Shown: in pieces, positions 11,657-30,271 of the stretch | How positions within the stretch are numbered: position 1 is the stretch's first letter | How the letters are laid out: each line of letters opens with the position of its first letter | DNA from: Pseudidiomarina planktonica | GTDB lineage: Bacteria > Pseudomonadota > Gammaproteobacteria > Enterobacterales > Alteromonadaceae | Length of the DNA stretch: 64,000 nt | Direction: 5' to 3' | Assembly (NCBI RefSeq): GCF_900177775.1 | Contig: NZ_FXWH01000001.1 | Coordinates: 868,001-932,000, forward strand | The notes under the pieces: generated by a model | The model's input: only the letters and a program-made list of their open reading frames with translations | The model's database searches: none | Told to the model about the DNA's origin: nothing | Made by a program: the position numbers and the translations under genes

Positions 11657-12928
11657 ATGCCTAAGCCCCGGACGCTGGCTCCTGCAGCCAGCGCCAGTCT
11701 GGATGATTGGCTTCACTACCTGGAAAATTTGCATACCAAAACCATTGAGTTGGGGCTGGATCGTGTTAGTGAAGTAGCCGATAAGCTTGGTGTGCGGCAA
11801 CCCAAAGTACCAGTTATCACTGTGGCTGGCACGAACGGCAAAGGTTCAACCGTACGTTATTTGGAAGTTATACTTCAGCATGCTGGTTACAGTACCGGCG
11901 TATATGTTTCTCCTCATCTTTATCATTACGCCGAGCGGGTTCGTTTAAACCAGCAACACCTGCCTGATGCCGAACACACGCAAGCCTTTGCGGCGGTTGA
12001 AGCCGCGCGCGGTGACACCTCACTAAGCTATTTTGAGTTTGGTACCCTGGCAGCTTTATGGCTATTTCAACAACACCAGCCCGATGTGATTATTCTGGAA
12101 GTTGGCTTGGGCGGGCGCCTGGACGCAGTTAATTGCGTAGCGCCGGATGTAGCCGTGGTTACCAGCATAGGGCTGGACCATTGTGACTGGCTGGGTGATA
12201 CCCGCGAACTTATTGGATTTGAAAAAGCCGGGATTTTCCGCGCAGGTAAACACGCTGTATGCGGCGATCCCGATATGCCGGTAACTATTGGTGAACATGC
12301 GCAAGCCATTGGCGCAGTTTTGTCTCAAGTAGGTGAGCAGTTTAGCTACCAACGCGATACTGACCGCTGGCATTATCGCAGTGAAACGCTGAACTTAACT
12401 AATTTACCGCTGCCACAGTTACCATTAGCAAACGCAGCTACGGCTATCGCAGCATTAGAAGGCTTAGCGTTACCAGTTACCGCAGCGGCTATCGCACAAG
12501 GGATTGGCGAGGCGCGTCTGGCGGGCCGATTGCAACTGCTGCAAACCAATCCGCCAGTGTTGCTGGACGTAGCCCATAATCCCCATGCCGCTGCCTTTTT
12601 ATGTGACACTGTGCAGGCACGCTTTAGCGACTATGACGTTATTGCGGTGATAGGTATGTTAGCCGACAAAGATATTCAGGGCAGCTTACAAGCGCTGCAA
12701 CCGGTAGTGAGTGAATGGGCTTTGGCTAGTTTGTCAGAACCTCGTGGAGCCAGTGCCCAGGAGCTGCAACAGGCGCTGCCACCTACTAATGTACCTGTGA
12801 GTAAGCATGACTCTGTCGTAGCCGCTTTTGAGTATGCGAGAGAGCGCGCCAAAGCTGCATCGCGATCTACGCTGGTATTGGTGTGTGGGTCGTTTTACAC
12901 TGTGGGCAAGATTCAAGCGAAGGAGTAA
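11657..12928 (+). CDS. folC: Dihydrofolate synthase / folylpolyglutamate synthase (FolC)
   Basis: A 423-residue Mur-ligase-type enzyme that adds glutamate to dihydropteroate and then to reduced folates. The ATP-binding P-loop GTNGKGST is at about 58-65. SYFEFGTLAALWLF and LEVGLGGRLDAVN mark the central domain. LLDVAHNPHAAAF begins the C-terminal ligase domain near residue 300. It lies two bases after accD and four bases before dedD, so the three genes form one transcription unit. Confidence 0.95.
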   Translation: MPKPRTLAPAASASLDDWLHYLENLHTKTIELGLDRVSEVADKLGVRQPKVPVITVAGTNGKGSTVRYLEVILQHAGYSTGVYVSPHLYHYAERVRLNQQHLPDAEHTQAFAAVEAARGDTSLSYFEFGTLAALWLFQQHQPDVIILEVGLGGRLDAVNCVAPDVAVVTSIGLDHCDWLGDTRELIGFEKAGIFRAGKHAVCGDPDMPVTIGEHAQAIGAVLSQVGEQFSYQRDTDRWHYRSETLNLTNLPLPQLPLANAATAIAALEGLALPVTAAAIAQGIGEARLAGRLQLLQTNPPVLLDVAHNPHAAAFLCDTVQARFSDYDVIAVIGMLADKDIQGSLQALQPVVSEWALASLSEPRGASAQELQQALPPTNVPVSKHDSVVAAFEYARERAKAASRSTLVLVCGSFYTVGKIQAKE

Positions 12929-12932
12929 GTAA

Positions 12933-13490
12933 GTGGCTACCCAGTTACAGAACAGATTAGTCGGCACTGTTATCTTAGTCGCTTTGGCCGTGATTATTCT
13001 GCCGGACCTGCTCGACGGTCAGAAACGTGAACAACAGCAGGCTTACGAAACTATTCCTTTGCAACCTGAAGGTGAAGTACCTAGTGATGCGGTGCAGTTA
13101 CCTGAGGTTGAACGTCAGCAATCGACTAACGCTGCTGATGCAGCGCTTGAAGTAACTGCCGACAACGCACCTGCGGTAAGCGACAAGAGCGCTAATGGCG
13201 AGGAAGGTTTCGCCGAAGCATTAGCTGAGCCGAAAGAAGCTACGGTTGGCGAGGAAGCGTTCGTGATTCAATTAGGCGTATTCCGCAACGCCGATTCGGT
13301 GCGTGAATTAGTCACTCAACTGAAAAGTGAAGGTTTCCGGGCTTATGCGTCGCCGGTGACTACCAGTAGCGGTGAATTGACCAAGCTTATGGTTGGCCCG
13401 GATGCCTCCAAAGACCGACTCGAAGGGCAACTTCAGCAGTTGCAGGCATTAACCGAGCTGCAGGGCAAAGTGTTAAAATACCAACCTTAA
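12933..13490 (+). CDS. dedD: SPOR-domain cell-division protein DedD
   Basis: A 185-residue inner-membrane protein with a single N-terminal transmembrane helix (about residues 8-24, GTVILVALAVIILPDLL), an acidic low-complexity linker and a C-terminal SPOR domain (about 108-182, beginning FVIQLGVFRNADSV). SPOR domains bind denuded septal peptidoglycan, and DedD localises to the division septum. The start is a GTG preceded by AAGGAG seven bases upstream. The position between folC and cvpA matches E. coli. Confidence 0.9.
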   Translation: MATQLQNRLVGTVILVALAVIILPDLLDGQKREQQQAYETIPLQPEGEVPSDAVQLPEVERQQSTNAADAALEVTADNAPAVSDKSANGEEGFAEALAEPKEATVGEEAFVIQLGVFRNADSVRELVTQLKSEGFRAYASPVTTSSGELTKLMVGPDASKDRLEGQLQQLQALTELQGKVLKYQP

Positions 13491-13630
13491 GCATAGCGTA
13501 AAAACTTGCGCATTCGCTGATTGATTCTGGTAGAATCCGCGCATATTTTGTCGCCTTACGAAGTATGCTGACGGGTTCGGTGTTGAGGTTCCGGCAGCAG
13601 TGCAAGGCCATTGATAAAGCGGACAAAAAA

Positions 13631-14125
13631 ATGATTTGGATAGATTACGCTATCATTGGCATTATCGCGTTTTCAGCACTGATTAGTGTTGCCCGCGGCT
13701 TCGTACGCGAAGCAATCTCTTTAGTGGTCTGGGTTGCAGCTTTTTTTATTGCCAGCACCTTTTATCCCGACCTCGCTACTTACTTCACTAATTTTGATGA
13801 TCCCCTGATTCGTAACGGCATTGCGATTGCGGCGCTATTTGTTGCCACGTTAATTGTTGGTGCCATTCTAAACTTTGTTATCGGCCAGCTGGTTGAGAAA
13901 ACCGGGCTGTCGGGCACAGACCGTGTTTTAGGGCTGGTTTTTGGTGCTTTACGCGGCGTCCTTATTGTCGGGGCTCTGCTATTTTTTGTGGATTCTTTTA
14001 CCACAATGTCAGGCGACGATTGGTGGCAGGAATCTACCTTGATTCCACATTTTGGTATTTTTATTCAATGGTTTTTTGAACACTTAGAAAATTCGTCGAG
14101 CTTCTTACCGAAGCAAAGCGTTTAA
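13631..14125 (+). CDS. cvpA: CvpA family membrane protein
   Basis: A 164-residue inner-membrane protein with about four hydrophobic segments. [30 protein letters not shown] and [19 protein letters not shown] are nearly the same as in E. coli CvpA (162 residues), which is needed for colicin V production and full envelope-stress resistance. I start it at the ATG at 13631, which aligns with E. coli. A longer frame from 13565 adds residues with no counterpart. It precedes purF by 14 bases, the conserved cvpA-purF operon. A weak PurR-like sequence lies upstream at 13496-13511. Confidence 0.94.
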
Positions 14126-17327: not shown

Positions 17328-19961
17328 ATGGCAAAATCGTTGGTTATTGTCGAGTCCCCGGCAAAAGCGAAAACCATCAATAAATATCTGGGTAGTGATT
17401 TCATTGTGAAATCAAGCGTTGGTCACGTCCGTGATTTACCAACGCGCAGCACCGAGAAAGTAAAGACCAAGTCACCAGCAGAAGTTCGGAAAATGTCGCC
17501 GGCGAAGAAAGAAGCTTATCGCCGCGACCGCGAGCAGAAGAAGCTGGTTGCGCGCATGGGGGTTGACCCTAATAACGACTGGGAAGCTCACTACGAGGTG
17601 TTGCCCGGTAAAGAAAAAGTTGTGAACGAACTGAAAAAACTGGCAGCAAAAGCTGACCACGTATTTCTCGCAACGGATTTGGACCGCGAAGGGGAAGCTA
17701 TTGCCTGGCACTTGCGCGAGCTTATTGGTGGTGATGACAGTCGCTTCCAGCGCGTGGTATTCAACGAAATTACCAAAAACGCCATTCAGGAAGCGTTTTC
17801 GCAGCCGTCAGAGCTGAATCTGCATCGGGTGAACGCGCAGCAAACGCGGCGCTTCTTAGACCGCGTGGTTGGTTTTATGGTGTCGCCACTACTATGGAAG
17901 AAAGTAGCGCGGGGCCTTTCTGCCGGTCGGGTACAGTCGGTTGCTGTGCGCTTAGTGGTGGAACGCGAGCGTGACATTAAAGCCTTCGTGCCGGAAGAGT
18001 TTTGGGACATTCACGCCGATCTGAATACGCCTAAGGCGGAAGCACTGCGCATGCAGGTGAATCGCTACAAGGGTGAAAACTTCCGACCAAATAACAAGGC
18101 TGATACCGAGCAGGCAGTGAAAGCACTGCAGCAAGCTGACTATAAAATCACCAAGCGTGAAGACAAGCCAACCAGTAGCAAACCTTCGGCGCCTTTTATT
18201 ACTTCAACGCTGCAACAAGCCGCCAGTACAAGGCTTGGCTTTGGCGTGAAGAAAACCATGATGATGGCGCAGCGTCTATATGAAGCCGGCCATATTACCT
18301 ATATGCGTACCGACTCAACCAACCTCAGCAATGATGCTGTGGCCGCTTGCCGTGACTATATCGAACAGCAATTTGGCGATGCTTATTTACCGAAGCAAGC
18401 AACGCGCTATGGTTCTAAGTCGAATGCGCAGGAAGCTCACGAAGCCATTCGCCCGTCCAGTGTTACGGTTAAATCTGAACAATTGAAAGATATGGAACGC
18501 GATGCGCAACGTTTGTATGAGTTGATTTGGCGCCAGTTTGTGGCTTGCCAGATGACGCCGGCGCGCTACGATTCAACTACCTTAACGGCAACTGCCGGTG
18601 AGTTTGAACTGAAAGCACGTGGCCGCGTGCTGCGCTTTGCCGGTTGGACCAAAGTGCAACAGCCGGGCGGCAGCAAAAAAGACGAAGACACTACCTTGCC
18701 AGACGTGAAAGAGGGAACTTCGTTAACGCTTGAAAAGCTGGACCCACAGCAGCACTTTACCAAGCCTCCAGCTCGCTACAGTGAAGCCTCGCTGGTAAAA
18801 GAACTGGAAAAACGTGGTATTGGTCGACCTTCAACTTATGCTTCGATTATTTCGACCATTCAAGATCGCGGTTATGTACGCGTAGATAACAAACGTTTCT
18901 ATGCCGAGAAAATGGGCGAAATTGTGAATGATCGGCTGGTGGAAAACTTCCAGGATCTGATGAATTACAATTTCACTGCCGAAATGGAACAGGCTCTGGA
19001 CGATATCGCTACCGGCAATCGCCAGTGGAAGCAAACCTTGTCGGAGTTCTACGAGGAATTCAGCGCCAAGCTGGAACAGGCCGAGAAAGATCCACAAGAG
19101 GGTGGCATGCGCACCAATCAAATGGTGCTGACCGATATTGATTGCCCAACCTGTGGTCGCAAAATGGGTATTCGTACCGCTTCTACCGGCGTATTTCTGG
19201 GCTGCTCTGGTTATGATTTACCGGCCGCAGAGCGCTGCACTAAAACCATGAATCTGGTTTCTGGTGAAGAAGCGGTGAAGGTTGATGACGATGAAGAATT
19301 AGAAACCGAAGCATTACGGGCGAAAAAACGTTGTCCGAAATGCGGTACCGCCATGGACAGTTACCTGATTGACGAACAGCGTAAGCTGCACGTATGTGGT
19401 AACAATCCGGTGTGTGACGGCCAGTTGTTAGAGCAGGGCAAGTTCCGCATTAAAGGCTACGACGGGCCAACCATTGAGTGTGACCGTTGTGGTTCTGAAA
19501 TGCAGTTAAAAACCGGCCGCTTCGGTAAGTACTTCGGTTGTACCAACGACGAGTGTAAAAATACCCGCAAGCTGCTCAAAAGTGGCGAGCCGGCACCACC
19601 AAAAGAAGATCCTGTGCCGTTACCTGAATTGCCGTGTGAAGACAGCGATGCTTACTTCGTGTTGCGTGACGGTGCCTCGGGTATCTTCTTGTCAGCCAAT
19701 ACTTTCCCACGCTCACGTGAAACCCGGGCAGTGAAAGTGGCTGAATTGAAACGCTTTAAAGACCGAATTCCCGAGAAGTTCCACTATCTGGCTGAAGCGC
19801 CGCTAAAAGATGATGACGGCAATGAAGCCATTGTCCGCTTTAGTCGTAAGCAGAAAGAGCAGTATGTGGTAACTGAAGTGAACAAGAAGCAGACCGGCTG
19901 GCAGGCGCACTACCACAAAGGTAAGTGGGAAATCACCGAAGGTAAAAAACGCGGTTCATAA
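17328..19961 (+). CDS. topA: DNA topoisomerase I (TopA)
   Basis: An 877-residue type IA topoisomerase that relaxes negative supercoils. The N-terminal Toprim domain ([18 protein letters not shown], and [13 protein letters not shown] near 122-134) carries the metal-binding acidic residues. The active-site tyrosine is Tyr325 in [12 protein letters not shown]. Three CxxC-type zinc-ribbon repeats ([27 protein letters not shown]) follow in the C-terminal third, and then a basic tail. The length is close to E. coli TopA (865). It has its own promoter and is followed by the structured leader of the pilus operon. Confidence 0.97.
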
Positions 19962-20097: not shown

Positions 20098-20499
20098 ATG
20101 TACCTCGTTAAACCTGCTGTTAGCATTATTCCGCTCCTGTTATTGGGCAGCCATTCGGCATGGGCACAGCTGCCACCCTGCCAACCTTTGAATACCAGCG
20201 TTGAAATAGCCCCCGCGACGGTGCCAGAGCAAGCTAAGAAAGTTGCGATGCTGCTGCGCGAAGGGCTGTTAAAACCGCAACTCACCGCCATTCTTGAAAA
20301 ACATTTCAATATTCATCTGGTTGACTGGCAAGCCTCACCGCACCATCGCTGGCCCAGTGAGTATCGGGTTGACGCCTGGTCCTGGGCGGAATTACTAAGC
20401 CGCGTATTAGAACCTTATGGCATGCAACTAATTATTCATGCCAATCGTAGTGCGGTAGTGCGCTATCGGTTCCCTACTGATTCGAAGCAACAATCATGA
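20098..20499 (+). CDS. Exported TcpQ/PilL-like pilus biogenesis protein
   Basis: A 133-residue protein with a signal peptide (cleavage near SAWA-QLP). Its C-terminal half, with HFNIHLVDWQASPHHRWPSEY and SWAELLSRVLEPYGMQLIIH (about 65-119), looks like the small periplasmic domain found in TcpQ and PilL proteins of type IVb pili, which helps to place the secretin. The family match is by pattern only. It opens a tight operon, and its stop overlaps the secretin start by four bases (ATGA). The start has AGGA seven bases upstream. Confidence 0.6.
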   Translation: MYLVKPAVSIIPLLLLGSHSAWAQLPPCQPLNTSVEIAPATVPEQAKKVAMLLREGLLKPQLTAILEKHFNIHLVDWQASPHHRWPSEYRVDAWSWAELLSRVLEPYGMQLIIHANRSAVVRYRFPTDSKQQS

Positions 20500-21989
20500 G
20501 TTACCGATGGATTCTGGTGATACTGATGCTTAGCGGCTGCCAACATAACCTGCAGAGCCTGCAGGAGGCACGTGAACGCTCGTTAGCTGAGCTTGATAGC
20601 GCAGACAGGTACTCGGCTCATCATTTAGCGCAACAACCCACTGTGAGCTTCTCTGAGCGTTTTTACGCACCACCGATACAAGCGCGTGATCAGCTCAAAC
20701 CGGGCTGGTATTCCACCGAGGTAAATATCGAGTTGCGGGAATTTCCATTGCAACGGGCCTTGCAGCGACTGTTAGCCCCACATCAGCTGGCAGTACGTTT
20801 TCTGGATGATATCGATTCCGATCAGTTAGTCAGCGTGCGCCATCAAGGCACTATCGGCGGTGCACTGGAGCAAATTGGGCGCGATACCGGCTTTAGCTTT
20901 GTGGTGGAAGACCAATTGGTAACCTGGAGTAAGTTTCGGGTTGCCGAGTTCGATGTGGCATTTTTAGCCGGCAACACCAACTTCTTTTTGGGCGACAGCG
21001 CGGAAGCAAACAGCGTGCAGCAATCACGACCCGGTACGACGCCTGCAGCTACCGGTATCAATGCCAATAATCGCCAATTTCTAAATTTCAGTAGCCAGGA
21101 TTTATCGGTTTGGGACGACTTAGAACAGGCCCTGACTATGCTGTTGTCCACCAGTGGTGAACTCAGCATTAATCAAAGTTCAACGTCGGTGCTGGTGCGC
21201 GATTATCCGCAGTATGTGGATCAGGTAGAGCATTATTTAAATCAGCAAAATCAACGTCTGACCCGCCAGATAGCCATGGACATTAAAGTGCTTGAAGTAA
21301 CCTTTAATGAGCGTGACCAAACGGCTATTGACTGGCAACTGGTGCGGCAGGCCAATGGCATTGACAGCGTCATCAATGTGGCTGGACAACTTTTGGGTAG
21401 CGCTGTAAGCAGTGGTCAGGGACAACTGAGTTTGCAGCGTAATAGTGGCAGCTATGCAGGTTCCGGCGCCTTGCTTCAGGCATTACAGGAGCAGGGCGTC
21501 GTACAAGTAAGTAACCATCCACGATTGCTTAGTTTGAATAACCAGATTGCCAAAATTGTGCTGGAAGACAATGCAACTTACCTGGCGTCTGCCGGAACCA
21601 CCAGCACTGCCAATGTGGGGTCCAGCGATGTGTTAATTCCGGGCGTTATCACCACCGGTTTTGAGTTATATGTGCTGCCCAAAGCAACGCAGGGGCAGGT
21701 GATTTTACAACTCTCAACCAGTTTGTCTGACTTGCAGAGTATCGATGAAGTGCGCTCCGGCGACATGTTGATTCAAACCCCGCACACCAATCGTAAAAAT
21801 TTCTTTATGAAGGCTATGGTAGCCAATGGCGAAACGCTGCTGCTATCGGGGTTAAAAAATAGTCGCAAGGAACAACGTGAGCAGCAGTCGTTTGGTAGTT
21901 GGCTATTTGGTGGTGGACAGCGTGATCAGCACATGGGTAGCGAAACTTTACTGCTGATCACGCCGCATATTATTGAGCGGACCCTCTAA
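20496..21989 (+). CDS. pilN: Type IVb pilus secretin lipoprotein (PilN-like)
   Basis: A 497-residue outer-membrane secretin, the channel through which the pilus leaves the cell. The signal sequence ends in a lipobox (LMLSGC, Cys15), so it is a lipoprotein like R64 PilN and BfpB. An N-terminal periplasmic N-domain (about 70-150) is followed by further N-domain sequence. The C-terminal secretin domain (about 255-497) includes VSNHPRLLSLNNQIAKI, NGETLLLSGLK and a terminal LLLITPHII. It overlaps its neighbours by four bases upstream and one base downstream, so the operon is translationally coupled. Confidence 0.87.
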   Translation: MSYRWILVILMLSGCQHNLQSLQEARERSLAELDSADRYSAHHLAQQPTVSFSERFYAPPIQARDQLKPGWYSTEVNIELREFPLQRALQRLLAPHQLAVRFLDDIDSDQLVSVRHQGTIGGALEQIGRDTGFSFVVEDQLVTWSKFRVAEFDVAFLAGNTNFFLGDSAEANSVQQSRPGTTPAATGINANNRQFLNFSSQDLSVWDDLEQALTMLLSTSGELSINQSSTSVLVRDYPQYVDQVEHYLNQQNQRLTRQIAMDIKVLEVTFNERDQTAIDWQLVRQANGIDSVINVAGQLLGSAVSSGQGQLSLQRNSGSYAGSGALLQALQEQGVVQVSNHPRLLSLNNQIAKIVLEDNATYLASAGTTSTANVGSSDVLIPGVITTGFELYVLPKATQGQVILQLSTSLSDLQSIDEVRSGDMLIQTPHTNRKNFFMKAMVANGETLLLSGLKNSRKEQREQQSFGSWLFGGGQRDQHMGSETLLLITPHIIERTL

Positions 21990-23194
21990 TGGAGCAGCTT
22001 CACTATCATTTCAGCGCCTTTCGCGAAAGTGCCAGTAAACGTGAACTCAAGCTGTCCCGGCTGCGGCAGCGGGCGCAACAGCTGCAGTGTAACTATGTTG
22101 GTATATTTAAAACGGCCAGCACGAACTGGTTGTGCTTTGCTGACACCCCCGGGATTGATGGCGCTGCTGTGGTGCGCAGCCAGCTTAGCGCTACTAACGT
22201 ACTTTACTTGTCCCGCTGTGGGCGCGACTACGTATGTGTGCACTGGCAGGGCGACAAACTTTGTTGCGCGCAAACTATGGCATTGACCCCCTTGCAGGAC
22301 TATCTCACCAGTACTTTCGATAGCGCCGATGAAACCCTTGAAGTAATGCTGGCGCTGCCTTCGGGTGACGGCGTGCGGGCGCAATTGGCTGCCTTGTTTA
22401 AGCCTGGCCAGCTCAGTCAGCATGATCAGCCGTTAATCACCTCAAGTGCTAACTATTGTTTAGTGCCGCTGGCGCGGCTGCGGCGAGTGTTACAACCTTA
22501 CCGCTATGTGCTGTGGGCTATCACCTTAGTGCTGGCGGTGGTCGTCGGTATTGGCTTGATGTGGCTGCAACAACCGGCTGTGGTTGCACCTGTGGTGCCG
22601 GCAGATCCGCAGCAACTTCGACTGGAACATGCAACTAGCAGAGGCGTTGCGGTAGCCAATACGTTGTCGTTGGTGAGTGTGTTGCAGCACACTCAGCGCT
22701 TATCGGGTTGGAAGTTGCAGCGCTTGGTGGTGGCTGAATCTAAGCCTGAGGTTGCTTTTTTGCAGGTGCAGTCGAGCTATGGCGATGTGACTTCGCTGCG
22801 CCAACAATTAGCGGCACTGCCGGTGCACTGGGAGTTTTCTCAACAAGGCGTGGTGCTGCAATTGCCACTTACTACTGAAGTGACTGAGGTAGTTGCTATG
22901 CCTGAGTTCGGTAACTTTGCCATTCAGGTGCAATGGCTGCTGGATGCGTTAGCGCGTTACTTACCGGGTATTCAGTTACAACTGGGACCCCAGCAAACCG
23001 AGCGTTATGGGCTCAACAGCCGCCAGTTACAGTTGAAGTTACCAAACCTGTATTCGGAGGATTTGGAAACGCTATTTAATATTCTAAAGTTGCTGCCAGT
23101 GCGGTTATTAAATATGGAGCTGACCTCGCAGCACTTTCAGTTAAGTGGTGATATGAACTTGATTATGTACGCCAAGGAGAACTCTCATGACTAG
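21989..23194 (+). CDS. pilO: PilO-like type IVb pilus assembly protein
   Basis: A 401-residue protein with a soluble N-terminal domain, one transmembrane helix near residues 172-193 (VLWAITLVLAVVVGIGLMWL) and a periplasmic C-terminal part. Size, membrane topology and its place between the secretin and a PilP-like gene match R64 PilO (PilO2 family), an inner-membrane accessory protein of thin-pilus assembly. Sequence motifs are weak, so the name rests largely on synteny. Its ATG overlaps the pilN stop by one base, and its 3' end overlaps pilP by eight bases. Confidence 0.68.
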   Translation: MEQLHYHFSAFRESASKRELKLSRLRQRAQQLQCNYVGIFKTASTNWLCFADTPGIDGAAVVRSQLSATNVLYLSRCGRDYVCVHWQGDKLCCAQTMALTPLQDYLTSTFDSADETLEVMLALPSGDGVRAQLAALFKPGQLSQHDQPLITSSANYCLVPLARLRRVLQPYRYVLWAITLVLAVVVGIGLMWLQQPAVVAPVVPADPQQLRLEHATSRGVAVANTLSLVSVLQHTQRLSGWKLQRLVVAESKPEVAFLQVQSSYGDVTSLRQQLAALPVHWEFSQQGVVLQLPLTTEVTEVVAMPEFGNFAIQVQWLLDALARYLPGIQLQLGPQQTERYGLNSRQLQLKLPNLYSEDLETLFNILKLLPVRLLNMELTSQHFQLSGDMNLIMYAKENSHD

Positions 23195-23690
23195 ATTACA
23201 GGCCTGGTGGGTCGCTTTGCTAGTGCCGGCCGTGCTGTCTCAGGAAGTCATGGCCCAGCAACTGCCACTACCGCAGCAATTAGACGCGCAATTAATTGCC
23301 GCCGCGCGGGATCCGCAAGAAACTCAAACGCATCAGCAACTGGTGCGGTCATTGCGGAATCAGGAGTTAATGACTGAACAAGCCGCAGCCCAAGTGGTGC
23401 AACTGACTCATCAGCTGCAAGCGGCAAAAACGCTGGCTGAGTTGCGCAAGCTAGGTCAACAGCCTCGCGTGGACGCAAACACGGCGGGCAGTAACATCGA
23501 ATTAGATCAATTCCGGTTGCGGGCGATAGTAGAAAATAGTCACCAATGGCTGGCGGAATTTGAGTATTTAAACAACCTGATTGCAGTAAGCGCCGGGCAG
23601 CGTTTATTAGGAATTATTGAGGTTGAACGCACCTCAGCAGGGTTGCAATTAAGCTATGGCGAGCAGTTGCGAGTGCTTAGCATTTTTTAG
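23187..23690 (+). CDS. pilP: PilP-like type IVb pilus protein
   Basis: A 167-residue exported protein with a signal peptide (cleavage near EVMA-QQL). A glutamine-rich helical part (about 45-110) is followed by a compact C-terminal domain containing QRLLGIIEVERTSAGLQLSYGEQL. That layout and its place between PilO and the ATPase fit the R64 PilP family, a periplasmic link between inner-membrane components and secretin. No catalytic motif is present. A 31-base gap separates it from the ATPase gene. Confidence 0.65.
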   Translation: MTRLQAWWVALLVPAVLSQEVMAQQLPLPQQLDAQLIAAARDPQETQTHQQLVRSLRNQELMTEQAAAQVVQLTHQLQAAKTLAELRKLGQQPRVDANTAGSNIELDQFRLRAIVENSHQWLAEFEYLNNLIAVSAGQRLLGIIEVERTSAGLQLSYGEQLRVLSIF

Positions 23691-23721
23691 GGACAAAAAA
23701 CGCCAATGCGCAGGAGGCGCT

Positions 23722-25122
23722 ATGCATTTTTACGATATAGACGAACTGAATGGGGCTCAATTAAGTGAGCCAATTCTTGACTACTGTTTGCAATTTGTCG
23801 AGCGCTGGCACGCCAGTGATGCAGCTATTATTGCTACTGATAGCGGTAATCTTATTGCGTCTAAGCAAGCCTGGCAGCAGCACCAGTTAGAATTAACCAA
23901 TTTACGTTGCTTGTTGGCGAAGCAGGGCATTGAGCTATACGCCGAAGGAGTCGCGGCGGCAACTACTATCAGAACCTTGTTGCACGATGCCGATGCGCGC
24001 CGTTTGCAAGACACCAGAGATGATCATTTAAATTTCGACCGAACTCAGGCGCAGCAAGCGTTAGAAGATATTGTTCAGGAAGGTATTCAATTAAATGCGT
24101 CCGACATTCATTTATTGTTTTTACCCTCCCACGCCACCTTAAGTTATCGGGTTGATGGGCGGTTACTTCGAAATTTACGGCGTAGCCGTGAAATTTTAAC
24201 CGCCGCTATTGCTGCCGCTTTGAATACTCATTCTGACGACTTCCATCAGGTATTTGATGAACGCCGCCTGTCCAGCGCCAGTATTTCGCTTAGCGTGAGA
24301 TCCCAGCATGGCGTGCAGCAAGTACGCCTGCGCACCCAAAAATCACCGACGCGGGATGGCTTTGCCGTAACTATGCGTATTCAACGTGATCAACAGGTAG
24401 CTAAGTTCGAAACATTAAAATTTCCGCCCGATATTGTGGCTGCGTTGCGGCTGACCATTGAGCGACCTACCGGGTTAGTGCTGGTGGTAGGTCCTACCGG
24501 ACATGGCAAAACATCCACTTTAGCCGCTCTGCATTTATCGGTACCGCCGGATTTAAAGGTGATTTCACTGGAAGATCCAATCGAAATTATTCAACCCCAT
24601 ATTGAGCAGAAGCCGGTTACTGCTGACCACCCGGAGTTTAATTTTAACAACATGATCAAAGTAGCTTTACGAGAGGACCCAGATGTTATTTCGATTAGCG
24701 AAATTCGTGACCAAGCTACGGCGCAGGCAGCTTATACAGCGGCTTTAACCGGGCATTTGGTGTTTGCAACTATGCATGCTTACGACGCTTTTGGTGCGTT
24801 GCAACGGCTTCAGGATTTGGGTGTTTCACTGGCTGCGCTGGCACAGCCGGATGTGCTTCGTGGCATTGTCGCGCAGCGTTTATTGCAACACCGCTGCGAC
24901 ACTTGCCACAGCGCCGCGGCAACTGATTGTGCAAGTTGTCAGGGAACTGCAAAGCAGGGCCGGCGTTTACTGGTGGAATATTTACCAATGTCGGACGACC
25001 TCCGGACAGGCATGCTCACCGGCAATATGATAGCGGCGCGCGAGCAGCTTGAACAACAAGGTTGGCAGGGGTTACGGCAGCAGTTGCAGGCATCTGTGCA
25101 GCAGGCGGTTGCGCTAGCATGA
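23722..25122 (+). CDS. pilQ: Type IVb pilus assembly ATPase (PilQ, GspE/PulE family)
   Basis: A 466-residue secretion-type ATPase that powers pilus extension. Walker A is VGPTGHGKTSTLAAL near residue 256-268, with Asp box SLEDPIEI, Walker B region REDPDVISISEIRD and His box TGHLVFATMHAYDA. A four-cysteine metal-binding cluster (CDTC and CASC) lies near 392-405. I start it at the ATG at 23722, which has an AGGAGG four bases upstream. A longer in-frame extension has no such site and would overlap pilP. The stop overlaps the next start by four bases (ATGA). Confidence 0.9.
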   Translation: MHFYDIDELNGAQLSEPILDYCLQFVERWHASDAAIIATDSGNLIASKQAWQQHQLELTNLRCLLAKQGIELYAEGVAAATTIRTLLHDADARRLQDTRDDHLNFDRTQAQQALEDIVQEGIQLNASDIHLLFLPSHATLSYRVDGRLLRNLRRSREILTAAIAAALNTHSDDFHQVFDERRLSSASISLSVRSQHGVQQVRLRTQKSPTRDGFAVTMRIQRDQQVAKFETLKFPPDIVAALRLTIERPTGLVLVVGPTGHGKTSTLAALHLSVPPDLKVISLEDPIEIIQPHIEQKPVTADHPEFNFNNMIKVALREDPDVISISEIRDQATAQAAYTAALTGHLVFATMHAYDAFGALQRLQDLGVSLAALAQPDVLRGIVAQRLLQHRCDTCHSAAATDCASCQGTAKQGRRLLVEYLPMSDDLRTGMLTGNMIAAREQLEQQGWQGLRQQLQASVQQAVALA

Positions 25123-26135
25123 AACGTAACCGGCAATTAGCCTTTGTGGAAGACTTTGCCCAGTGGCTGGACGACGGCTACAGCCCGTTGCGAGCTTGCC
25201 AGGTACTATTGCAGCATGCGCAGGCCCAGCGTTTGCAAGCTGAGCTACAACTTTTAAGCAGCATTTTGCAAACCCTAAGTCAGGGAAAACCACTGGTGGA
25301 TGCACTACAACGGCATTTAGATGCTGACCTTTGCATGATGTTCGCGGTTGGTGAGCAAGCGGGTTGTTTGCAGCAATTACTGGTTGATTTTCAGGTGGCT
25401 GACAGCGAGCGCAGGCAAGCCCAGTTGGCTTTTATAAAACCTCTGCTATATCCGGCTGCGGTCAGCTTGTTCGCAGTTGGTGCTTGTTATTTTGTCGGTC
25501 AACGGATTTTACCCGGGCTGGCGCAACAGGTGCCGAAAGCCGATTGGCCGCTAGCAAGCCGGTGGCTGAGTCAGGCTGGAGAGCCGTGGCTAACCGTGAC
25601 TTTGTTAGTAGTGCTCGGTAGCAGCATGTTGGTGCTATGGGGGCCACGCTGGTTACCGGGGCAAGCGAGCCGCGCCGGGTTATGGTTGGCTGCACGCGGA
25701 GCATTCCGAATTGGCCGCGGGTTCGGCGCTGTTATGTTACTGCAAAGCCTGGAGCTACTGCTGCGCCACGGCTATAACCTGGACCGGGCTGCGCAACTGT
25801 TGCAAGCCCAAAGCAGAAGTTGGCTGCATCCTCATTTGCAGTTAATTCGGCAACGGCTAGCCAAAGGGGAGCGAAATCTCGCGCAGGTGCTGGATACCGG
25901 TTTATTGTCACCGCGAATGCTCTTTCGGCTGAGTAACAGCAGTAGTGCGAGCCATCGTGAACGCGATGCCGATAGTTTGCATCAAGCAGCGCGTCGGGCT
26001 ATTGCAGATGCGGTGTTTACCTTAAGTTGGACACGTTTACTACTGGTAGGTCTGCTGTATGCATTTATTAGTGTGTTGATGTTGCTGGTACTCGGCGGTA
26101 CGGGTGCTTTGCTGATGTCAGTGGCCAGTTTCTAA
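25119..26135 (+). CDS. pilR: Type IVb pilus inner-membrane platform protein (PilR, GspF family)
   Basis: A 338-residue polytopic inner-membrane protein of the GspF/PilC type. It has two cytoplasmic helical GspF domains (about 5-105 and 195-300) and three membrane segments: near 107-130 (LLYPAAVSLFAVGACYFVG), near 155-173 and at the C-terminus (LLLVGLLYAFISVLMLLVLG). It anchors the ATPase and the growing pilus. The start was set at 25119, where ATGA overlaps the pilQ stop. It is followed by a 65-base AT-rich gap with a tandem repeat before the pilin gene. Confidence 0.85.
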   Translation: MKRNRQLAFVEDFAQWLDDGYSPLRACQVLLQHAQAQRLQAELQLLSSILQTLSQGKPLVDALQRHLDADLCMMFAVGEQAGCLQQLLVDFQVADSERRQAQLAFIKPLLYPAAVSLFAVGACYFVGQRILPGLAQQVPKADWPLASRWLSQAGEPWLTVTLLVVLGSSMLVLWGPRWLPGQASRAGLWLAARGAFRIGRGFGAVMLLQSLELLLRHGYNLDRAAQLLQAQSRSWLHPHLQLIRQRLAKGERNLAQVLDTGLLSPRMLFRLSNSSSASHRERDADSLHQAARRAIADAVFTLSWTRLLLVGLLYAFISVLMLLVLGGTGALLMSVASF

Positions 26136-26140
26136 TCATT

Positions 26141-26172
26141 TTTATTTACTACAAAGTTTATTTACTACGAAG
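26141..26172 (+). repeat. Tandem 16-bp repeat before the pilin gene
   Basis: TTTATTTACTACAAAG (26141-26156) is followed directly by TTTATTTACTACGAAG (26157-26172), one mismatch. GTTTATT (26156-26162) can also pair with AATAAAC (26173-26179). This is the only sizeable gap inside the pilus operon and it directly precedes the major pilin gene. Confidence 0.65.
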
Positions 26173-26200
26173 AATAAACGCAAAATTAAGGACATAACTT

Positions 26201-26671
26201 ATGAAAAGGATTTCAGTAAGCAAGTTTAACCGTCGGCGCCGGCAGGGATTTACCTTTATCGAAGTGCTGGCGGTACTTAGTATCATTGCTGTAGCAACCG
26301 TTGGTTTAATGATGATGCGCGACTGGGCGGTGGGCAATTCCCGGGTTGCTGAAGCTAAAGCGCAATTGGCGACTATTCAATCTGGCGTGCGTTTGTGGCG
26401 GCCAAGATCTGGTATTTACACCGGTATTTCGGTTACGGCATTAACTGATATTGCTGCGCTCCCTACCAACTGGTCAACCGGGGAGCGAATGAATCCTTGG
26501 GGTGGCGATATTAGCGTGACTGTTGATGGCGCGGATAACTCCCGTTATACGGTTCGTTATACCGGTATTATGTATTCGGAGGAGGGCGCCCGGCTGGCGC
26601 ATGATTTTGCCGAGCTGGCAGTGGTTGCAAGTTTCAGTGATGACACTTTTACCGTGACTTTCCAAGGTTAA
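26201..26671 (+). CDS. pilS: PilS-like type IVb major prepilin
   Basis: A 156-residue prepilin. A 16-residue, Arg-rich leader ends in Gly, and the predicted mature protein begins FTFIEVLAVLSII, with the conserved Glu at position 5 and a hydrophobic helix. The mature part (140 residues) contains the PilS-family feature NPWGGDISVTV. Unusually it has no cysteine, so the disulfide typical of type IV pilins cannot form. AAGGA stands eight bases before the ATG. It is the likely main pilus subunit, because it is the first pilin of the operon and is set apart by its own gap. Confidence 0.82.
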   Translation: MKRISVSKFNRRRRQGFTFIEVLAVLSIIAVATVGLMMMRDWAVGNSRVAEAKAQLATIQSGVRLWRPRSGIYTGISVTALTDIAALPTNWSTGERMNPWGGDISVTVDGADNSRYTVRYTGIMYSEEGARLAHDFAELAVVASFSDDTFTVTFQG

Positions 26672-26677
26672 CGTCAA

Positions 26678-26932
26678 ATGACCAGAGAGCACGGAAATAT
26701 GTTAGTTGGCTGGGTTATAGCGCTGGGTTTAATGGCATCTGCAAGTCTCAGCTTGTTGCCATGGTTGCTAACGAGCAGTGAACTCGCGCAGCCGCCAACG
26801 CTCCCCACTTTAACCGTATGTCAGAATTACTGGTTGCGCGACCCTGCTCGCGGTGAACTGTTAGCTGCACAGCAACATTACTACGCTGCCGTTTCCTCTG
26901 ATGAAGCGCCAGTGGTCTCCTGTCATGGGTAA
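26678..26932 (+). CDS. Small membrane protein of the pilus operon, unknown
   Basis: An 84-residue protein that I do not recognise. It has one hydrophobic segment near residues 8-30 (MLVGWVIALGLMASASLSLL) and a short exported-looking tail with two cysteines (CQNYW and VSCHG). It lacks the Gly-Glu5 pattern of a prepilin. It starts six bases after pilS and overlaps the PilV-like gene, so it is clearly part of the operon. It could be a minor pilin-like or assembly factor; this is only inferred from position. Confidence 0.55.
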   Translation: MTREHGNMLVGWVIALGLMASASLSLLPWLLTSSELAQPPTLPTLTVCQNYWLRDPARGELLAAQQHYYAAVSSDEAPVVSCHG

Positions 26933-28007
26933 GCAGCGGGGAATTATTCTGGCAGAAGTGGTGCTGGCTATTGTATTAAGTAGCGGTTTACTCGCTATTG
27001 TCGTGGGTTGGCAGCAGCGTCAACAACAGGTGGAGGCCTATGAGCAGCAGTTAGATTATGCCCGCCAACTGATGATGGTGTTGCAAAATTACCAGCAAGA
27101 ATTCGGTAGCTATCCTGAGCATCTAGCCGAGATTGAGGCCAGTGGCTATTGGGAGAACGTTTTACCTACCGTGCAAAAAGCCGAGTGGCAGTGGGAATTT
27201 ACGACACCATTTTTAGATATTCGCGCACAGTTGCCCTCGGCAGGTCAGGCGCGTTGGGTTGCAGCGCAGTTACCTGATGCTAGATCCAATAATACGGTAC
27301 TGGAAATTCGCATGGTGCAAGCGGCCATCATTAATGCGGTTGATACCAGCGTGTTGCTGCATCGAGTTGCGGTGGCGGATAACCCGCAACTGAATCAATT
27401 GGCTACTCATATATCCATGCAGGGACACGATATTCGCGATGTTGGAACCCTAACTGCTAACGCGGTAACGGCGCAACAAGCCGATATGACGCGGGTGACT
27501 GCGAAGGAGCTGCGAGTGGAAAACGGCTTGAGGTTGAATAACACCAGTATGACCGCGGTAGGAAATCGTTTAACGGTAACCGCCGGGTTATTAGAGCTGC
27601 AAGGGCCTGTCACTATTTCCGGGTTACTGGATTTGCAGGGAAATAATTTAAGCGGCGTAAACCAACTCACGGCAAATCAATTGAATGTGCAGCAGGTGAG
27701 TGGTGAAAATGTCACTGCGAATGAAGTGACCACCGAACTGCTGCAGGTGGATGATCTTCAGGTGTCCGCTAATCTTACTCTGGCGCAGTTTCATAGCCAT
27801 GACTTGCAGGTTGACTTGTTGACAGCCGACACGCTCACGGCGACAACCTTAAGCGCTAACCAAGCCACTATTAACCAACTGCAAGCGGATTACATTTACG
27901 CCACCGATGTTATTGCCGGAGCGCGTTCGATTAGTGAAAACTATGACTTAATTAACACCTACCGGGCCTTGTGGGAGCAATGTGTTGACGTAGGCGGCTG
28001 TCAGTAA
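26925..28007 (+). CDS. pilV: PilV-like minor pilin with repetitive C-terminal region
   Basis: A 360-residue protein with a prepilin signal: MGKQRG, then IILAEVVLAIVLSSGLL with Glu at position 5. Residues from about 170 carry the sequence MQGHDIRDVGTLTANAVTAQ, which resembles the conserved region of PilV shufflon proteins. Many short repeats of the form L-T-A-x-x/L-x-V-x follow and look like a beta-solenoid or stalk. The protein ends with two cysteines (CVDVGGC). PilV proteins sit at the pilus tip and bind partner cells or surfaces. An earlier start at 26901 would give a longer leader. No inverted shufflon segments follow. Confidence 0.72.
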   Translation: MGKQRGIILAEVVLAIVLSSGLLAIVVGWQQRQQQVEAYEQQLDYARQLMMVLQNYQQEFGSYPEHLAEIEASGYWENVLPTVQKAEWQWEFTTPFLDIRAQLPSAGQARWVAAQLPDARSNNTVLEIRMVQAAIINAVDTSVLLHRVAVADNPQLNQLATHISMQGHDIRDVGTLTANAVTAQQADMTRVTAKELRVENGLRLNNTSMTAVGNRLTVTAGLLELQGPVTISGLLDLQGNNLSGVNQLTANQLNVQQVSGENVTANEVTTELLQVDDLQVSANLTLAQFHSHDLQVDLLTADTLTATTLSANQATINQLQADYIYATDVIAGARSISENYDLINTYRALWEQCVDVGGCQ

Positions 28008-28729
28008 TGTATTTGCGCCGGCAAGCAGGGCAGGCAACAGTGGAAACCGCTCTGCTGTTGTCACTTATGCTGGTTATTAGTTTGCTGGCATTGCAGCTGC
28101 TGTGGATTTTCTGGCAGCAGCATACGCTGCAGCTGGCCACTAGCTATGCTTTACGTAGCGGGGCCATTGCCAACGGCAACCACAGTGACATGAGCACAAC
28201 CTTGGTTAGCTTGCTAAGCAGCACGCAAATGCCGAAACTGGCGGCCGATGAGCAACCGGGGTTGGCCCTGGCAATGCGCGCTTACGCCACCGAATGGGTA
28301 AACTTTCAGCGTTTCGGCGAGGTTCGTATTTTACGTCCGGGCAAGGCCACCCAAAGAGAGTTTTCCGAGCCAAGGGTCGGTATTCAGAATCGGACTACTG
28401 AAGGTTTTCAACCGGGCTTAAGCCGAACTAAGCGTTTGCGGAAATGGACTGAAATTAGCGTGGATCATGCCCGTGCCCGTTATGCCGCAGCAACAGACAA
28501 GCCGGCCTGGCTGGCAGCCCGCCAGCTCGAAATTGAAGTAGTACTATGCATGCCACTGCAACTACCTGTGGCTGCGACGCTGCTGGCGGCCGTTCATAAC
28601 TGGTGGACAGAGCACCCTGCCAATCACTTTTGTCGTGCCCGGCAGGTGTTAAGTAGTGACCCGCTGTGGCCGTTAAGTCACCGGCTTAGCGGACCCATGC
28701 TATCGGGTTTTCACTCCTCAGGATCGTGA
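28007..28729 (+). CDS. TadE-like pseudopilin of the pilus operon
   Basis: A 240-residue protein whose N-terminus, MYLRRQAG then [21 protein letters not shown], has the Gly before the cleavage site and Glu at position 5 seen in TadE/TadF pseudopilins of Flp/Tad pili. One membrane helix is followed by a periplasmic part of about 200 residues with few cysteines. Finding a TadE-like protein at the end of a PilN-V type operon is unusual. Its ATG overlaps the pilV stop by one base, and its 3' end overlaps folD by 19 bases. Confidence 0.68.
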
Positions 28730-29574
28730 TAGTCTTCGCAGGCTTGCAGCGTGTTCTCAATCAAAGTCGCAACAGTCATGGGGCCAACGCCACCTGGTAC
28801 CGGGGTAATGAAAGCGGCTCGTTCAGCGGCGGCAGTGAAACCAACATCGCCACATAACTGACCATCAGGTTTGCGGTTCATACCAACATCAATAACGATA
28901 GCGCCGGGTTTTATCCACTCGCCAGGAATGAATTCCGGCTTGCCTACCGCAACCACCAGTAAGTCAGCTCGTTCAATGTGCTGCTGCAGGTTTTTGGTAA
29001 AGCGATGACAAACCGTGGTGGTGGCGCCGCCCAGCAATAGCTCAAGGCTCATCGGGCGACCCACAATATTAGAGGCGCCAACAACAACGGCATGTAAGCC
29101 GTGTAAATCAATGCCCAGGCTATCAAGCATGGTAATAACACCTTTCGGTGTACAAGGGCGAAGGGCTGGGTTGCGTTGAGCCAGGCGGCCGATGTTATAA
29201 GGATGGAAGCCATCGACATCTTTGTCCGGGCGAATGCGCTCCAAAATGGCCTGCGAGTCGAGTCCTGCAGGAAGCGGTAGTTGCACCAAAATGCCATCTA
29301 CGCTGGAATCATTATTCAGCTCATCAACAATCTGCTCAAGTTCTGCCTGAGTTGTTGTAGCTGGCAGGTCGTAGGCTTTGGAAGTAAAGCCAACTTCCTC
29401 GCAAGCACGACGTTTGCTGCCCACGTAAACTTCTGAGGCCGGATCGGTGCCAACCAGAACTACTGCGAGACCGGGCGCCCGGCGACCTGCCGCAGCTCGT
29501 TCGGCTACGCGGGTTTTAACCTGAGTACGCACGTTTTGGGCGATACGCTTTCCATCAATCAGTTGTGCAGACAT
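28711..29574 (-). CDS. folD: Methylenetetrahydrofolate dehydrogenase / cyclohydrolase (FolD)
   Basis: A 287-residue bifunctional enzyme interconverting 5,10-methylene-, methenyl- and 10-formyl-tetrahydrofolate for purine and formyl-Met synthesis. [16 protein letters not shown] contains the catalytic lysine. [24 protein letters not shown] and the NADP-binding [13 protein letters not shown] follow, and [19 protein letters not shown] ends the protein. I place the start at 29574 (MSAQLIDGK), which gives the usual family length; an upstream ATG at 29601 would add nine residues. The 3' end overlaps the TadE-like gene by 19 bases. Confidence 0.95.
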
Positions 29575-29717
29575 ATAAGACGCTTCTAAAGGTTGTTGCA
29601 TGAATAATCAGAGGCGCTATTTTCGCAGATAATTGGATGCGGGTGTAGCGCAAATCACGAAAACCTCGGTAAGTTGTTGCAAAAGTAAGCAGTTAAAGGT
29701 TTCCAGCAAAAAAGTGT

Positions 29718-29831: not shown

Positions 29832-29908
29832 CGGTGATTAGCGCAGCTTGGTAGCGCACTTGGTTTGGGTCCAAGGGGTCGCAGGTTCAAATCCTGCATC
29901 ACCGACCA
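29832..29908 (+). tRNA. tRNA-Pro (anticodon TGG), copy 1
   Basis: A 77-nt cloverleaf with acceptor stem CGGTGAT/ATCACCG, anticodon loop TTTGGGT (anticodon TGG), T-arm GGTTCAAATCC and encoded CCA. It is identical to the copy at 30195 over an 83-base direct repeat (29829-29911 and 30192-30274). Confidence 0.97.
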
Positions 29909-30194: not shown

Positions 30195-30271
30195 CGGTGA
30201 TTAGCGCAGCTTGGTAGCGCACTTGGTTTGGGTCCAAGGGGTCGCAGGTTCAAATCCTGCATCACCGACCA
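30195..30271 (+). tRNA. tRNA-Pro (anticodon TGG), copy 2
   Basis: Identical to copy 1 at 29832, with encoded CCA. The order Arg-His-Pro recalls the E. coli argX-hisR-leuT-proM operon. No clear terminator follows before the diguanylate cyclase gene. Confidence 0.97.

Follow-up and report, generated by a model that had tools for sequence, protein, structure and literature searches.

A TadE-type gene closes a predicted type IVb pilus operon in Pseudidiomarina and its relatives and stays with the secretin where one clade has lost the pilus genes

To our knowledge, filament machines of the type IV pilus superfamily are usually treated as closed sets. Type IVb pili typically have a major pilin with a long leader and a first residue other than phenylalanine. 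A prepilin peptidase may be encoded apart from its pilus locus (PMC6668835), and TadE, TadF and TadG have been proposed to form a tip that starts the Tad pilus (PMC12075869); the main text of the former paper does not contain the term "TadE". Titles and abstract openings in the literature mentioned neither a Tad gene within a type IVb operon nor any work on pili of Idiomarina or Aliidiomarina, which is no proof of absence. Here, we analysed a stretch of 64,000 nt of Pseudidiomarina planktonica (NZ_FXWH01000001.1, 868,001-932,000, forward strand; "the window", whose numbering is used throughout) with ten open reading frames (ORFs; g1 to g10) on one strand at 20098-28729, flanked by topA and folD. 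An earlier sequence-only reading had called this a ten-gene operon, and the ORF coordinates bear it out. Genes g1-g9 are predicted to encode a type IVb pilus, while g10 most likely belongs to the Tad pilus of the same cell, as its second pseudopilin of TadE type, and has been relocated. Two observations are new and had escaped the earlier reading: g10 is orthologous to a TadE gene of Tad loci and absent from the tad locus of the window's genome, and a clade of five related genomes retains only three of the ten genes (g1, g2 and g10). We favour, with a probability of roughly 0.66, an explanation in which the type IVb pilus was ancestral to the group defined below and g10 its Tad passenger, and in which one Aliidiomarina clade lost the pilus, keeping g10 for Tad and g1-g2 for another client.

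When 395 GTDB-family genomes were searched for the secretin (E-value 1e-40 or better), 60 of them matched: 26 of the window's own genus (genus g1), 17 of genus g11, nine of genus g28 and eight in five other genera. The 52 matched genomes of the first three genera are referred to as the group. Each carries one g10 (in G229 as two neighbouring pieces), always within the topA-folD region as judged by eye. The TadE domain (PF07811) matches g10 with 29.6 bits (cut-off 22.9) and nothing else in the whole genome; all 22 members of the g10 family match it at E 0.1, and the structure of g10 is predicted with a pLDDT of 90.4. A g10 family model searched against 394 genomes of the order (E 1e-8) matched 15. 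Three of these belong to the group; the remaining 12 are spread over five other families, where 11 matches are nearly full length and one (G556) covers positions 14-177 of 231. All 12 outside relatives sit in Tad-type loci with TadB/TadC-like genes upstream, 11 of them directly after a TadD-like lipoprotein gene; in the twelfth (L162) the interval was not resolved by ORF calling. Gene names in these loci come from order and likeness by eye, L161 excepted, where Pfam identifies the gene after TadD as TadE (24.8 bits, cut-off 22.9), finds TPR repeats in TadD and T2SSF in TadB, and gives a sub-threshold Tad domain in the TadG-like protein and no match for the first TadE. In a maximum-likelihood tree of 44 proteins, a branch supported 100/100 parts g10 and the after-TadD genes from the first TadE genes of Tad loci, two of which come from the group itself. 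It is the PF07811 domain together with this orthology that makes g10 a TadE family member.

The window's genome has its own tad locus (L106), running from Flp-like, TadG-like (PF13400, 23.0 bits, cut-off 22.3), first TadE (192 aa), a 181-aa protein, CpaB and secretin genes to TadA, TadB, TadC, DUF192-like and TadD-like genes, with CpaB at 100 bits and TadA at 338 bits, the latter below its cut-off of 373. No g10 relative follows its TadD-like gene, and the g10 profile gives its first TadE 14.8 bits; g10 itself lies about 116 kb from the flp-like gene. The gene tadA is present in 52/52 group genomes. As side observations, L106 has a 457-aa ORF after TadD (12592-13965) that begins like a prepilin, matches nothing in Pfam and is not listed at that place in L107, and tadA of G233 is matched as two adjacent pieces (C13:23824-24952), which may reflect a gene break or faulty assembly, with g10 matched in one piece.

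The second line of evidence comes from G241, G216, G326, G184 and G253, where the locus is reduced to g1-g2-g10 and g3-g9 are absent (that of G326 ends inside g10). A topA-folD-astB tree (FastTree, midpoint root) unites these genomes in a single clade with a local support of 1.0. Neither PF00437 nor a direct g5 search found a g5 orthologue elsewhere in them, the best match reaching 155 bits vs 351 for the operon ATPase of G010. In four of the reduced loci the secretin gene runs into g10 with an overlap of 1 or 4 bases; in the fifth, a gap of 9 bases separates the two. That these loci are slowly decaying remnants without function is improbable: frames are open in all five (in L054 as far as the contig end, which falls within g10), although their topA proteins differ by 11-13%, a range that excludes the near-identical pair L057/L061; of 52 secretin positions that do not vary among the other 47 loci, 50-51 are retained, as are 5/5 such positions of g10; and dN/dS in the closest pair, L057/L061, is 0.15 for g1, 0.089 for g2 and 0.08 for g10 (topA 0.006). 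What speaks for decay is that, measured against topA, the rates of g1 and g2 are higher once the pilus genes are lost (medians 8.8 vs 5.8 and 3.7 vs 2.5), although the ranges overlap and the pairs compared share branches and are not independent; folD is faster as well (1.55 vs 1.20), whereas g10 is not (6.0 vs 8.6; nine and eight pairs, for folD five and eight, L057/L061 left out). Overall, these values indicate that g1, g2 and g10 of the reduced clade are under purifying selection. Since g10 was kept after g3-g9 were lost, it does not depend on the type IVb pilus. Most simply, g10 serves something other than that pilus, and together with its orthology this points to Tad. Secretin g2 probably has a second client.

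Alternatively, g10 might have been recruited into the type IVb pilus, acting there as a minor pilin and no longer serving Tad. We regard this as rather unlikely, although a 1-base overlap couples g10 to g9 in the window and g10 occurs in all 47 full operons, because purifying selection acts on g10 even in the five genomes without g3-g9 at the locus, its 12 relatives outside the group sit in Tad-type loci, and a screen of eight distant type IVb loci, of which some are incomplete, gave no g10 match. Several points nevertheless weigh against a g10 that still works for Tad and a clade that merely dropped the pilus. The translational coupling to g9 is what would be expected of a true type IVb pilus member. 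The g10 sequences are not monophyletic in the 44-protein tree, and therefore the date of the move is not fixed; its direction, like its date, we infer from gene order. The 52 genomes were picked by a secretin match, and the outside tally covers only Tad loci with a g10 relative. The higher rates of g1 and g2 allow partial relaxation after the loss. Finally, a secretin is already encoded in the Tad locus, and a Tad role of g10 therefore leaves the retention of g1-g2 unexplained.

Besides its tad locus, the window's genome holds type IVa genes (PilB, 837.6 bits, and PilP), an MshL-type secretin in L110 (296 bits) and a GspD/GspE-like pair, a label taken from score and size. Among the 17 genus g11 genomes, PilP (PF04351) was found in none and a PilQ-size secretin, so labelled from length and score, only in G297. 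Aliidiomarina-type pilA-pilB-pilC-pilD clusters occur in L111 (G184), L112 (G241) and L114 (G059), with short PilB proteins of 327-355 aa (PilB') that keep Walker A. By co-occurrence only, this pilA-pilB'-pilC-pilD cluster is a candidate client of the secretin. Going further, g1, g2 and g10 could be a port for more than one pilus, g2 passing the fibre of this cluster or of Tad with g10 at its tip. These are exactly the retained genes, secretin gene and g10 are tightly joined in the reduced loci, PilP and PilQ-size secretins are as scarce in genus g11 as just described, and short PilB-like ATPases with intact Walker A occur in all three g11 loci read. Still, the argument is pure co-occurrence, Tad and the GspD/GspE-like system own secretins, and in G184 the match of the short PilB leaves out model positions 1 to 177, so that this protein may be inactive; we consider such a port rather unlikely. 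Still more speculative, and quite doubtful in our view, is the generalisation that type IVb secretin, g1 and g10 form one gate and tip module usable by any filament motor, the reduced locus being the module alone. As a side observation, in two genomes of genus g44 (L099 and L102) a short g3 and a g4-like gene come after the g1-g2 pair, with no g5-g9 match; in one (L099, 4420-12566, minus strand) a 1669-aa coiled-coil-rich protein with a signal-peptide-like start, judged by eye, follows. Both hold other filament ATPases (best match 151 bits).

The locus itself is most likely ancestral to the group. We compared 60 loci, the window and L005 included, of which 52 are group loci; named records among the matches are Idiomarina, Pseudidiomarina, Aliidiomarina and one gammaproteobacterial metagenome-assembled genome. 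Both topA and folD flank the locus in 50/52 group loci, and L005 and L054 meet contig ends, leaving one flank each. Genes g1, g2 and g10 are present in all 52, g3, g5, g6 and g7 in 47, a g9-type ORF in 45 and g4 in 40. In genus g28, 8/9 loci (L089-L091, L093 and L095-L098) have a g9-type ORF of 134-135 aa without a PilV-like end. The sequence-only reading had proposed acquisition into a conserved housekeeping gene order and suggested looking for topA next to folD where the operon is absent. In none of 29 genomes of other genera tested did folD lie within 1.5 kb of topA; topA-folD is therefore no generally shared gene order, and we came across no empty site. The site shared across three genera, together with this lack of an empty site, supports an ancestral locus. 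A recent acquisition by the window's lineage, which the 335 of 395 GTDB-family genomes without a match and the plasmid location of distant relatives of the locus might suggest, is hardly credible against one site in all 50 loci with both flanks and an operon GC content (0.516) near that of the rest of the window (0.493). Members of the three genera without a match, if any, fall among 315 of the 335 non-matching genomes.

Within the operon, six of the nine junctions are overlaps of 1, 4 or 8 bases. The remaining three are gaps of 31, 65 and 6 bases, assuming that g5 starts at 23722, where an ATG has AGGAGG just upstream, and g9 at 26925. The claim that most junctions overlap by 1-8 bases thus holds for six of them, and coupling is supported (Table 1).

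Table 1. Features of the topA-folD region in the window, with roles as predicted from sequence
Feature	Position	Strand	Predicted identity and remarks
topA	17328..19961	+	left flank
g1	20098..20499	+	small exported protein, TcpQ/PilL-like by position; retained in reduced clade
g2	20496..21989	+	outer-membrane secretin, PilN (type IVb) kind; retained in reduced clade
g3	21989..23194	+	PilO2/BfpC-like bitopic inner-membrane protein
g4	23187..23690	+	PilP-position protein; basis is position and coupling
g5	23722..25122	+	assembly ATPase, R64 PilQ kind
g6	25119..26135	+	platform protein, PilR/GspF kind
g7	26201..26671	+	major-pilin-like prepilin, PilS kind, motif G^FTFIE
g8	26678..26932	+	mini-prepilin, 84 aa; Glu5 absent here (G^NMLVG)
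g9	26925..28007	+	PilV-like minor pilin, end LWEQCVDVGGC
g10	28007..28729	+	TadE-type pseudopilin; retained in reduced clade
folD	28711..29601	-	right flank, convergent, 3' end overlapping that of g10 by 19 bases

Beyond folD lies a tRNA-Pro (TGG) pair, identical by eye (29832-29908 and 30195-30271), that brackets tRNA-Arg and tRNA-His.

Family matches agree with the identities proposed earlier for the secretin, the ATPase, the GspF-type platform, PilS and TadE. The secretin g2 matches PF00263 (61.2 bits), with TIGR02520 as best model (223.4 bits, below the equivalog cut-off of 287.65), and aligns with R64 PilN in hhalign (E 5.5e-36, 99.9%). For g5, PF00437 gives 224.9 bits, scored on a longer frame from 23656, and R64 PilQ E 2.4e-38; for g6, PF00482 gives 30.1 bits and R64 PilR E 1.1e-12. 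Pilin g7 exceeds the cut-offs of PF07963 (30.1 bits) and PF08805 (22.9 bits) and aligns weakly with R64 PilS (E 6e-4); its first mature residue is phenylalanine, and its leader length varies with the start chosen. None of the 19 g3 family members matches a Pfam PilO model, and it is the predicted structure, with a PilO2-type fold match, that supports the PilO label. The PilV-like nature of g9 is in line with PF04917, though at 23.1 bits against a cut-off of 27.5, and with R64 PilV (E 8e-8, 48 columns); the strict LW..C motif occurs in 25/45 g9-family ORFs, two further ORFs being left out as the g7 frame. The "small membrane protein" g8 has no family match in profile searches, but ORFs at its position in many loci of the window's genus and genus g11 have prepilin-like N termini as judged by eye, so that it looks like a mini-prepilin. 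The PilP and TcpQ/PilL labels fit g4 and g1 by position, whereas no such Pfam model matches: g4 itself has no family match, and at E 0.1 0/16 of its family match PilP and 0/22 g1 family members match TcpQ, with two matching STN weakly. A distant g1 homologue in L099 reaches 24.8 bits for TcpQ, under the cut-off of 27.

The absence of pilT, pilU and a shufflon recombinase and the additional TadE-type gene were borne out. The ten proteins have no transglycosylase, A24 peptidase or integrase family match, and R64 PilT, PilU and Rci as phmmer queries match nothing in the window; the PilU query is insensitive, missing the genome's own PilD. Group loci yielded neither pilT nor pilU, for pilU on the strength of a query with the genome's own PilD, and the operon reading stays intact; a PilT-like gene is present in one distant relative (L100). 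As anticipated, the peptidase lies elsewhere: across the genome, an A24 peptidase is matched only once, by a 306-aa open frame that lies about 383 kb from the operon and adjoins pilC- and pilB-type genes.

Gene content, homologies, the orthology of g10, the lack of g10 in the window's tad locus, the loss in one clade and purifying selection all come directly from computation. The roles of the genes, as predicted from these data, would combine as follows. PilD, encoded elsewhere, would process the prepilins; g5 and g6 would power assembly; g3, and probably g4, would link the inner-membrane machine to secretin g2, assisted by g1; and g7 would form the fibre, with g8 and g9 initiating it and sitting at its tip. 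At some point g10 would have moved from the tad locus to the 3' end of the operon, where it became coupled to g9 and most likely still serves the Tad tip. One Aliidiomarina clade would then have deleted the type IVb pilus but retained g10 for Tad, which needs it, and g1-g2 for another client of the secretin.

If so, a Tad-class part has become fixed in a type IVb operon, in contrast to the closed-set view of filament machines. The reduced clade resembles a natural deletion in which motor, platform and pilins are gone while the port and the Tad part are kept. This raises testable questions about the dependence of Tad on a gene of another pilus operon and about the role of a secretin without its own pilus. 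In practical terms, the completeness of a tad gene set should not be judged from the tad locus alone.

Compared with known systems, g1-g9 fall with type IVb pili by their PilN-type secretin, ATPase with GspF-type platform, PilO2/BfpC-type protein, PilS-kind pilin and peptidase encoded elsewhere. The earlier reading had asked whether the operon is a standard MSHA or Tad system. It is neither, and the genome holds both separately: g2 scores 104.1 bits against the MshL model (cut-off 250.2), and Flp pilin, CpaB, TadA, TadB and TadC are not among the ten proteins but located in L106. Like the R64 thin pilus, the operon has the order N-O-P-Q-R-S...V, a homologous secretin, ATPase, platform and PilV, and a PilO2-type fold in g3. 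Unlike R64, it has no match to PilT, PilU or Rci, the combination that marks the R64 subfamily, and no gene at the place of PilM; it has a fixed PilV end, an extra mini-prepilin and a TadE gene, and its g1 and g4 show no detectable similarity to PilL and PilP. BfpC of the bundle-forming pilus and Burkholderia PilO2 differ from g3 in sequence, with 6-13% identity. Type IVb loci on large plasmids of Glaciecola, Aeromonas and Vibrio have a similar order, with secretins 27-30% identical among the matches listed, but longer genes at the PilV position and other neighbours. With the Tad (Flp, type IVc) loci of five other families, the operon shares the orthologue of their gene after tadD; whereas their TadE gene lies inside the tad locus, here g10 lies inside a type IVb operon.

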